From the IMG/VR virus record IMGVR_UViG_3300027972_000043, positions 1-30,198 of that record: DNA of 30,198 nucleotides. The stretch is one strand, 5' to 3'. Shown piece by piece: positions 24,236-27,930 of the stretch. The DNA comes from a virus. A program made the translations under genes and the position numbers. Below the pieces are notes generated by a model that searched no databases, was not told the origin of the DNA, and was given only the letters and a program-made list of their open reading frames with translations. How positions within the stretch are numbered: position 1 is the stretch's first letter; each line of letters starts with the position of its first letter.

Positions 24236-24263
24236 TTGACACTGTGAAATATTCGTATATATT
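24236..24263 (+). promoter_or_regulatory. Promoter TTGACA-16-TATATT
   Basis: Perfect TTGACA (24236-24241) and TATATT (24258-24263) with 16-bp spacer, directly after a terminator. The leader contains AATAACC (24278-24284) before ATG 24288. One of the two clearest promoters in the window. Confidence 0.75.
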
Positions 24264-24287: not shown

Positions 24288-24476
24288 ATGAAAACACTTA
24301 TTTTAATCGCTGTTATTTCAGCAATAGGGGCTACAAACTACGATTTACGTACATGAACACCTGAGGACACTGTACCAGTGAAAAAAACATCATTTGAGTA
24401 TGTTTCTTGCATGCAGGATTTAAGTATCCAAGACAAGGTAGAATGTGGAACTCCTCCAAAAACATTTGAAAAGTAA
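24288..24476 (+). CDS. Small secreted or periplasmic protein, 62 aa
   Basis: ATG 24288 to TAA 24474-24476, one TGA glycine. Residues 1-16 (MKTLILIAVISAIGAT) are a compact signal peptide: Lys followed by an apolar core and small residues. The mature part has two cysteines (YVSCMQDLSIQDKVECGTPP) that could form a disulfide, as expected outside the cytoplasm. It has its own strong promoter, hinting at an independent, perhaps early or lysogenic, role such as superinfection exclusion. That role is speculation. Confidence 0.65.
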
Positions 24477-24492
24477 AAAATCGGAGTATAAT
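24465..24492 (+). promoter_or_regulatory. Promoter of the large RNA, TTTGAA-16-TATAAT
   Basis: TTTGAA (24465-24470) and perfect TATAAT (24487-24492), 16 bp apart, overlapping the end of the preceding gene. Identical in both hexamers and spacing to the promoter at 703-730, which precedes the other structured RNA. Confidence 0.65.
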
Positions 24493-24794
24493 ACAAACGA
24501 CTACAAACTGCGGAGCGGAGGGTAGTTAGTCAGCATCGCTTTAGCTCGAAAGATACATGCATTGTAATACTCAAGCATATTACTCTTATATAACTAGCTT
24601 GAAGAACACCAAAATTAAATTTGTGAAATTATAGTTTTGGCGAACATAATTCACTCATTAGCACAACGAAGCCTTTGTAAGAGGTGGCAAGCTAGGTACT
24701 GACGACTCAGTATGACGCAATAGCTGAAATGCTATAAACAAAGCACAACCAAGTTATCACTAGTGGCTTACAACTGCTTAGTGATAGCGAATAT

Positions 24795-24865
24795 GGAGCA
24801 ATAATTCAACTGGTAGAATGTGAAGCTAGACTTCATAGATGAGGGTTCGACTCCCTCTTGCTCCT
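24795..24865 (+). tRNA. tRNA-like element with shortened anticodon loop
   Basis: The acceptor GGAGCAA/TTGCTCC, D stem ATTC/GAAT with AACTGGTA loop, T arm GAGGG-TTCGACT-CCCTC and spacing are canonical. The anticodon arm is TGAAG/CTTCA around only five bases (CTAGA), so the whole unit is 71 rather than 73 nt. If the closing G-C pair is opened, a seven-base loop GCTAGAC would present TAG, but position 33 would be C instead of U. No CCA is encoded (TGCA follows). Either a degenerate tRNA or a tRNA mimic built into the surrounding RNA. Confidence 0.6.
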
Positions 24866-24870
24866 GCATA

Positions 24871-24940
24871 GCAGACAAAGTGTAACGGTAGCACATCAGC
24901 CTCATAAGCTGGAGGATTGGGTTCAACTCCCATGTCTGCA
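24871..24940 (+). tRNA. tRNA with CAT anticodon (Met or Ile2 type)
   Basis: Acceptor GCAGACA/TGTCTGC, D arm GTGT-AACGGTA-GCAC, anticodon arm TCAGC-CTCATAA-GCTGG with U33 and anticodon CAT, T loop TTCAACT closed by TGGG/CCCA (four pairs). Position 8 is A instead of the usual U. The 3' end reads A-ACCA, one base more than a plain CCA tail. Next helix of the large RNA starts at 24944. It probably is a functional elongator or Ile2 (lysidine) tRNA; a structural role within the RNA is possible. Confidence 0.75.
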
Positions 24941-25172
24941 ACCATTGATACGAAAATAGATGATTGGAGAAATCCAAGTAAGACGGAGTATAAACCGATT
25001 TAAGACCTATTATCAACGATAGGCTCACTTATCCAGTATCAATAAGACACTTCACTGAATGAAGTAAAATGTCAGCGTTAGATGGACGACGATAACATGG
25101 GATAGCAGCACCTTGGCGAACCTGTCGCTACTGAGGGAAGAGACTCAGTATAATCAAGCGATTGCCAAAACT

Positions 25173-25198
25173 TCTTCCAATCCCAGGAAGATTTTTTT
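25173..25198 (+). terminator. Rho-independent terminator of the large RNA
   Basis: TCTTCC (25173-25178) pairs with GGAAGA (25186-25191), loop AATCCCA, followed by seven T and further T-rich sequence. The loop sequence ATCCCA could also pair with TGGGAT at 25098-25103. Confidence 0.85.
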
Positions 25199-25206
25199 AT
25201 TTTAGT

Positions 25207-25234
25207 TTTACAAGGAAAAGGAATTGAGTATACT
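25207..25234 (+). promoter_or_regulatory. Promoter TTTACA-16-TATACT
   Basis: TTTACA (25207-25212) and TATACT (25229-25234), 16 bp spacer, immediately downstream of the RNA terminator. It would drive the 25343 HNH gene and replication genes with a roughly 100-nt leader. Confidence 0.6.
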
Positions 25235-25257
25235 GCTAAAAGCGAACTGAGTTAAAT

Positions 25258-25336
25258 GACTTTGCAAAATAACAATCCTGTTTAATTCTCCATGTCTCGG
25301 TTCGCAAAGTCAGCATAGAGGATTAAACAGGGTTTT
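25258..25336 (+). promoter_or_regulatory. Pseudoknotted leader with terminator-like hairpin
   Basis: Two perfect helices cross: GACTTTGC (25258-25265) with GCAAAGTC (25304-25311), and CCTGTTTAAT (25277-25286) with ATTAAACAGG (25322-25331). The second is followed by GTTTTTA, so it resembles a terminator. The two can coexist as a pseudoknot or act as alternative states, which is how leader attenuators and riboswitches work. It ends 7-10 bases before the ATG of the HNH gene. Ligand or factor unknown. Confidence 0.6.
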
Positions 25337-25342
25337 TATATT

Positions 25343-25681
25343 ATGAAACATAGAAAGTACTACGAAAAGTGTACAAATAGAAAAATACCAAGTGATTTTC
25401 ATGTACACCATATAAATCATGACCATTCGGATAACAGAATTGAAAATCTTGTAGCAATACCAGGAGATTTACACATGTCGTATCACAATTTATATTTTTG
25501 ATTTGATACAGTAAATATACGTTTAACTCCAAGTATCCACATGGGGATGAAATGAATTAATGTATGAGTGCCAGAAGAACAATTAACTGAACTTATGGAG
25601 ATTTGTAAAGAAATATCATCCTGGATGTTATACAGGGAATATTTATTATGAAACTTTCCTTGTACAAATAATAGTTATTAA
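25343..25681 (+). CDS. HNH endonuclease-like protein, 112 aa
   Basis: Four TGA glycines. The block VHHINHDHSDNRIENLVAIP followed by HMSYHN is the HNH_3-type motif (His-His...Asn...Asn-Leu...His) of homing or phage HNH nucleases. No CxxC zinc pair is present. The C-terminal half (VPEEQLTELMEICKEISSWM) is helical. It is first in the replication transcript, behind the structured leader. Possible free-standing homing endonuclease; the nicking role is family knowledge, not shown here. Confidence 0.72.
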
Positions 25682-26726: not shown

Positions 26727-27146
26727 ATGCAACAATACCGAAAGAACACAGCAATCCAGGCAATCTCTCCAGATGGAGAAACCATAGTATTCCGAACGAT
26801 GATTGAGTGCTGAAAACATTTTGGAGTTAATCCAGCTCGAATATACGAGGCAATCAACTGGCGAGGTCGTGTAGTCAATGGGTGGACTATTCAAAAGATA
26901 GATTCAGATGGAGAGCCACCAGAATACAACAACGTGCAGGCAAAAATTAACTTAAAACGCAAGCAACAAGGGATAGACAAAGCTATCAACATTGAGAACA
27001 CCAAGAAACTCAAACGAAAGTACGATTTCTCCTCAGATGGATTTGGAAACACTGAAATGTTTATTATTGAAGATGGAGTAAAAATCCCATACGAGATAGG
27101 CAGAACACCATGAAGCAACTCAGTTCGTAAAGCATATAAACGATAA
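26727..27146 (+). CDS. NUMOD1-like DNA-binding protein, 139 aa
   Basis: ATG 26727 lies two bases after AATAACC. Two TGA glycines. The N-terminal segment AISPDGETIVFRTMIECGKH followed by FGVNPARIYEAINWRGRVVNGWTIQKI has the order of the NUMOD1/intron-nuclease DNA-binding repeat: short strands, a helix-turn-helix and the G..GW.. end. The C-terminal half is basic (KINLKRKQQGIDKAINIENT). No HNH or GIY-YIG catalytic motif is present in it; the HNH gene next door could be its partner. The stop overlaps the ATG of that gene. Confidence 0.6.
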
Positions 27147-27538
27147 TGTTATTCCCAAAATCATCGCTCCCAAAAATGCCTCCATCTGACTGGAAGAAAA
27201 AACTTACAGAAAAACCTATTGCAGAAGCCAAAAAAGAAACGGTTAAACCTAAGCCAAAAAAGCCAATTTCCAAGATTAGCAAGAAAAAGAAAAAGCGACT
27301 CAAGGAAACAGGAGGGGAAAAGGCTATCTTTCTCGAAGTCTGGAACGAGAGGTGTCATAATTGTGAAGTATGTGGCAAGGCTCTCAAAGAACTCAAAGCT
27401 CACACCATTGACCATAAAATTCCGAAGAGTAGAGGCGAGAAATACAGACTGGATAAAAACAATCTACAAATACTATGTTTCCCTTGCCATTACGAAAAGA
27501 GCTTCTGACTCAAATACAAGTGAATTGATTTAGATTAA
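27146..27538 (+). CDS. HNH nuclease with zinc finger, 130 aa
   Basis: ATG 27146 overlaps the previous TAA. Two TGA glycines extend the protein past the apparent stop at 27506 to TAA 27536-27538. Residues 1-60 are extremely lysine-rich (EKPIAEAKKETVKPKPKKPI, SKKKKKRLKETGG), an unstructured DNA-binding tail. The nuclease follows: RCHNCEVCGKALKEL, then HTIDHKIPKSRGEKYRLDKN, NLQILCFPCHYEKSF. CxxC pairs and the H..DH...N...CxxCH arrangement match HNH_1/5-type enzymes. It may act in recombination or DNA packaging, as phage HNH proteins next to terminase do, though here terminase is distant in the window. Confidence 0.8.
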
Positions 27539-27597: not shown

Positions 27598-27930
27598 ATG
27601 GCAAACCAACCATCAGCAGGAGTAACACTCCGAATGTACTACGAACAGTGAAAGAAATGTATTTACTGTGAACACGACTTTATCCTTGGAGATAAATACT
27701 ACAAACCGACAGTTGAACACATCAACCCAAAATCAAAGGGGGGAAAGAACAAAGATAACCTTTGTTTAGCTTGCTGGAAATGCAACACAATGAGGGGAAA
27801 CATAGATTTAGACCTTTTCATGAGTGGATACGCAGGAACAACACAACACATAGACGGAAAGACTCAGATGGTTCCTGTAAAGGTTAGATGACCAAAAATG
27901 TGGTATCACGGTAATTTTATAAAATGGTAA
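27598..27930 (+). CDS. HNH endonuclease, 110 aa
   Basis: Two TGA glycines. KKCIYCEHDF then PTVEHINPKSKGGKNKDNLC and LACWKCNTMRGNIDLDLF make a complete HNH_1-type site: CxxC, EH..P.S.GG, N, CxxCN...G. The C-terminus is short and aromatic (KMWYHGNFIKW). Typical length for a free-standing phage HNH nuclease. It starts a transcript with its own strong promoter and leader shared with the gene at 37, which is unusual for a selfish homing element and suggests a regular phage function. Confidence 0.85.

Follow-up and report, generated by a model that had tools for sequence, protein, structure and literature searches.

The window analysed here, a 30,198-base virus record, contains one long noncoding stretch (24477-25342), which most likely holds an orphan gene for a structured phage RNA with tRNA-fold modules; judging from the sequence, we give this reading an even chance. 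The dedicated gene would yield an RNA of about 700 nt that starts near 24499 and ends at a terminator at 25173-25198, with two tRNA-fold modules placed between structured 5' and 3' flanks. The initial annotation had proposed a tRNA-linked noncoding RNA in a code-25 phage, possibly belonging to the GOLLD or ROOL families. Its first part is still the best reading, while the family membership fails. The main rival is an ordinary phage tRNA transcript, in which two tRNA genes, of which one is drifting, are surrounded by decayed DNA or unconserved spacer with chance hairpins; we take this possibility seriously without favoring it.

The terminase, portal-like and major head proteins encoded in the record identify it as a tailed phage, and no integrase was found among its annotated genes. 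Under genetic code 25 the window is 93.7% coding, and reading TGA as glycine raises the coding share from about 42% to 94%. At the TGA codons of the window the relatives have TGA in 122 cells and Gly in 111, the next residue being A, in 30. These residues verify, at the sequence level, that TGA encodes glycine in this phage, in agreement with its annotation as a code-25 phage. The noncoding stretch is bordered on one side by a thymidylate-kinase-like gene with small ORFs and on the other by genes for an HNH endonuclease and a DnaD-like replication initiator. Three HNH endonuclease ORFs (25343-25681, 27146-27538 and 27598-27930) lie within a 2.6-kb span just downstream of the RNA.

According to the code-25 ORF lists, the 866 nt of 24477-25342, listed without a strand, contain no ORF, and the second-largest gap in the genome is 213 nt, which bears out the earlier description of a gene-free region in a packed genome. 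The period-3 signal of the region falls inside the range of shuffled sequences, and a PHROGs search with every frame gave no convincing protein-family match and hence no protein-family remnant. That no other gap exceeds 213 nt in a genome that is 94% coding, together with the lack of coding signal in the region, counts for a noncoding RNA gene. The same observations weigh against the tRNA transcript: 866 nt is long for so compact a genome, and any decayed gene has left no trace in periodicity or in PHROGs. The G+C content of the flanks without the tRNAs is 0.39, compared to 0.30 in 768 nt of other short intergenic DNA, which also favors an RNA gene over spacer.

The 213-nt gap, at 938-1150, sits upstream of ORFs 1151-1534 and 1534-1905 and of TerL. 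It has a G+C content of 0.43 and a fold z of -3.9 to -4.8, and some relatives also have a gap of 300-600 nt near this position. At E≤10 Rfam gave no match of interest for the gap, whose similarity to the main RNA is not above that of shuffles. A packaging site or a further structured RNA could be located here.

A possible promoter, TTGAAA-N15-TATAAT, can be read on the plus strand at 24466-24492. Promoter-like boxes are therefore present, but the sub-optimal 15-nt spacer makes the site weaker than the "clean promoter" that had been claimed, and leaves it unlisted by our promoter scan, which demands a spacer of 16-18 nt. The scan identified a stronger promoter-like site on the same strand, TTGACA-N16-TATATT (24236-24263; 11 of 12 matches), which precedes a 62-aa ORF (24288-24476) and could also transcribe into the RNA. 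At the other end, a program scan found an intrinsic terminator on the plus strand at 25173-25198, consisting of TCTTCC, 7 nt and GGAAGA followed by T7. It was graded good, so the terminator of the initial annotation stands as terminator-like from its sequence. Beyond it, 25207-25342 contains a promoter-like site and then a stem, TGACTTTGC/GCAAAGTCA, that overlaps a second one, a long terminator-like hairpin with T5. The arrangement, located directly before the HNH ORF at 25343, resembles an attenuator of the HNH gene or a conditional terminator.

Both tRNA-shaped units lie on the plus strand and score well above the cut-off of the Rfam tRNA model (RF00005; 29 bits). Unit 1 (24795-24865), called tRNA-Leu(UAG) by ARAGORN, scores 55.0 bits, and unit 2 (24871-24940), called tRNA-Met(CAU), scores 58.2 bits. 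The units are 5 nt apart, 6 nt separate unit 1 from the end of the preceding hairpin, and the 3' helix starts 3 nt past unit 2; with such gaps it is fair to describe them as flush with other helices. All pairs of the acceptor, D and T arms are kept in unit 1, and its Leu(UAG) name derives solely from the anticodon. A long variable arm and A73 characterize the Leu tRNAs of bacteria, and nearly all tRNAs have U33. Unit 1, which is 71 nt long, has none of these: its variable region is short and it carries U73 and C33 instead. Moreover, the anticodon loop may close to 5 nt (CUAGA). The one Leu tRNA used for comparison, from a phage contig (L203), is 86 nt long. Unit 1 is therefore an intact tRNA body and not a credible Leu decoder. 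It is unlikely to decode Leu codons; its sequence is best explained by a structural or decoy role for a tRNA-like element. The retention of its arms without Leu features counts for the noncoding RNA gene. Recoding by the UAG unit was considered separately and rejected, since CTA codons align with Leu. In unit 2 the anticodon arm is that of a normal Met tRNA, the T stem has 4 bp, and CCA is not encoded. The defects in both units favor the ordinary tRNA transcript; on the other hand, the arms of both tRNAs are intact and not eroded.

Some phages are known to use tRNAs against the anticodon nucleases of their hosts. The two units could likewise be counter-defence decoys or replacements, for instance against such nucleases, with flanks that serve expression and processing only. 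This general precedent and the combination, in unit 1, of a tRNA body with a non-standard anticodon loop agree with such a role. However, the support is not direct, the anticodon arm of unit 2 looks like that of a normal Met tRNA, and about 550 nt of flanks would be left unexplained, so that we regard the decoy explanation as improbable.

The predicted fold contains the more than ten stems and the two multi-branched domains of the initial annotation, all on the plus strand. The 5' flank (24499-24794) is predicted to form a leader hairpin, the 5' strand of a putative closing stem P1, a branched domain closed by the helix 24594-24601/24688-24695, and hairpins at 24696-24713, 24720-24735 and 24753-24788. 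The 3' multibranch domain (24941-25046) includes a GAAA-loop hairpin, and its predicted closing helix ATTGATAC/GTATCAAT (24944-24951/25036-25043), 3 nt past unit 2, has a pairing probability P of 0.93-0.95. A predicted series of hairpins and the 3' strand of putative P1 (25156-25165) follow at 25047-25172. With the tRNAs held fixed, P1 (24533-24541/25156-25165) is predicted with P of 0.7-0.96, and a local hairpin (25113-25119/25162-25168) is predicted to compete for its 3' strand.

The folding energy of the whole RNA, at z of -3.16 to -4.59 relative to shuffles, counts for an RNA gene, and when the tRNAs were held fixed it was about 3.2 sd below that of shuffled flanks. Folded without the tRNAs, the 5' and 3' flanks have z of -1.73 and -2.61, respectively. 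The level of confident local pairs in the 3' flank was reached by only 2 of 200 shuffles, which again counts for the noncoding RNA gene and against the tRNA transcript, as this flank is better defined than chance hairpins. The corresponding level in the 5' flank was reached by 56 of 200 shuffles and is not above chance. The long-range closing stem is not significant either, since 70 of 160 shuffles form a helix of 9 bp or more across the tRNAs. The modest z of the 5' flank and a long-range stem typical of shuffles both favor the tRNA transcript, and these shuffle-level results are counted against the noncoding RNA gene. So is the finding that some coding segments fold equally well. Of 94 further segments taken from the genome at equal length, 19 reached the pair density of the joined flanks. 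Of the "ornate" RNA initially described, the predicted fold and the statistical support for the 3' domain and the tRNA units stand, while the 5' flank and the closing stem are at chance level. As a yardstick, an authentic Ligilactobacillus ROOL RNA gave a z of only -1.25 by the same method, and folding energy therefore neither proves nor disproves an ornate RNA. Unpaired A residues were not enriched in the RNA above shuffles.

Two further candidate features were rejected. Pairing of the leader with the 3' half of unit 1 (-27.3 kcal/mol) was reached by 16 of 1000 shuffles and bettered by seven other sampled genome segments. The internal repeats AGCACAAC and GACTCAGTAT form short two-copy families that we estimate to be within chance.

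No homologue of the RNA was found in IMG/VR, phage or plasmid records, in searches whose reach was set by the exact short pattern that IMG/VR scans need and by the roughly 65-70% identity that BLAST needs; more diverged copies could escape both. DNA patterns from the RNA and unit 1 matched IMG/VR only by chance, in coding DNA (L014, L146-L177). In the collections of phages and plasmids, only similarity to the tRNA units and short chance matches were seen, and a single-sequence covariance model of the 3' domain, run on 726 kb of phage DNA, detected itself and no second copy. Single and profile scans with TerL did yield relatives, at 60-74% identity, and none of the fetched relatives of the phage lineage has a tRNA gene or DNA resembling the RNA. 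Single-protein IMG/VR scans with the methyltransferase and the phosphoesterase gave no matches. A profile scan with the kinase gave 23 loci, none with a copy of the RNA, and one with the phosphoesterase gave a single match, the relative G014. Upstream, this phage retains the genes for phosphoesterase and kinase, and downstream the terminase, with ordinary ORFs between them. As the RNA is absent from relatives and its place in G014 is taken by ordinary ORFs, it is accessory or recently gained in the lineage. The lack of a homologue in any collection searched and the absence of the whole region from the nearest relatives, which marks it as accessory, favor the ordinary tRNA transcript and are counted against the noncoding RNA gene.

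A scan of genome contigs returned one contig (L144; JALZUP010000340.1), which has no tRNAs, and the whole MAG to which it belongs gave no real DNA match. This 11.8-kb contig was binned as Robiginitomaculum; its TerL is about 65-69% identical to that of the phage, and it is probably a mis-binned phage contig. A related 36-kb code-25 phage carries a noncoding stretch of 614 nt on its minus strand (L032; G004:30711-31324) with a fold z of -5.8, without tRNAs and unrelated in sequence.

If the region is indeed a noncoding RNA gene, its RNA would be transcribed as a single unit. The tRNA folds would be modules that provide shape or serve processing, and would be released or clipped by RNase P and 3' processing. 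The flanks would fold into an RNA that is stable, probably oligomerises or binds protein, and is produced late or at lysis, in line with proposals for tRNA-bearing GOLLD RNAs. A bolder version, which we put forward only tentatively, is that the large phage RNA makes up a new class with no relation to GOLLD or ROOL, in which tRNA-fold modules (one with a disabled anticodon) are permanent parts and the host is a code-25 bacterium of the Gracilibacteria/Absconditabacteria type. What the GOLLD and ROOL cages are used for is an open problem for large tRNA-linked phage RNAs. If a separate class exists in the phages of ultra-small code-25 bacteria, this would suggest that phages evolved such RNAs repeatedly, and its built-in tRNA folds would provide a direct test of tRNA parts as cargo, processing signals or structure.

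GOLLD and ROOL form RNA cages, whose function is not known, and are often found near tRNA islands; the linker of GOLLD sometimes holds tRNAs, and its 3' region has been called universally conserved (PMC12286853). Phage K and ICP1 produce large, abundant ORF-free noncoding RNAs with no assigned function, which have been likened to GOLLD and ROOL (PMC9241854, PMC7567579). The tRNA association of GOLLD and ROOL and the large RNAs of phage K and ICP1 are counted for a noncoding RNA gene in the present phage. At the gathering score, only the tRNA family of Rfam matches the region, and no family of interest matches the region or its halves at E≤10. The GOLLD and ROOL memberships suggested initially failed, their covariance models being unmatched on the window at the gathering score and on the region and the halves even at E≤10, as did those of OLE and tmRNA, also unmatched at that threshold. 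Neither ARAGORN nor Rfam detected a tmRNA, with its tRNA-Ala-like ends and tag reading frame. As a positive control, the ROOL model scored 130.4 bits on the known copy in plasmid pMP118. A diverged GOLLD or ROOL member, to which size, phage setting, internal tRNAs, branched domains and terminator are all alike, is very improbable given the working ROOL control, the lack of a covariance match at E≤10 in region, halves or genome, and the failure to detect the GOLLD 3' region at E≤10 in the region, its 3' half or the family search.

The setting is nonetheless of the GOLLD type, with two tRNA units inside the RNA and a phage that has terminase, portal-like and head genes. Like GOLLD (RF02032), a large noncoding RNA of phages and prophages found near tRNA genes and sometimes with tRNAs in its linker, the candidate combines a large RNA with tRNAs; unlike GOLLD, it gives no covariance match, has no detectable conserved 3' region and is about 700 nt long with the tRNAs included, whereas many GOLLD members exceed 800 nt. 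With ROOL (RF03087) it shares the size class, a multi-domain predicted fold, carriage by phages or plasmids and the frequent tRNA neighbourhood. It differs in lacking a covariance match, and instead of tRNAs the solved ROOL example carries a linker that is short and disordered (nt 414-464). The RNAs of phage K and ICP1, for which a likeness to GOLLD and ROOL has been noted, are likewise long phage transcripts without ORFs, but they were revealed by RNA-seq, whereas the candidate is known from its sequence. The good match of both units to the tRNA model is shared with ordinary phage tRNA clusters (RF00005); unlike such clusters, the candidate has just two tRNA units, both with defects, and these lie within a structured noncoding unit of 700 nt. 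The candidate may work as the GOLLD and ROOL families do, but it does not belong to them.
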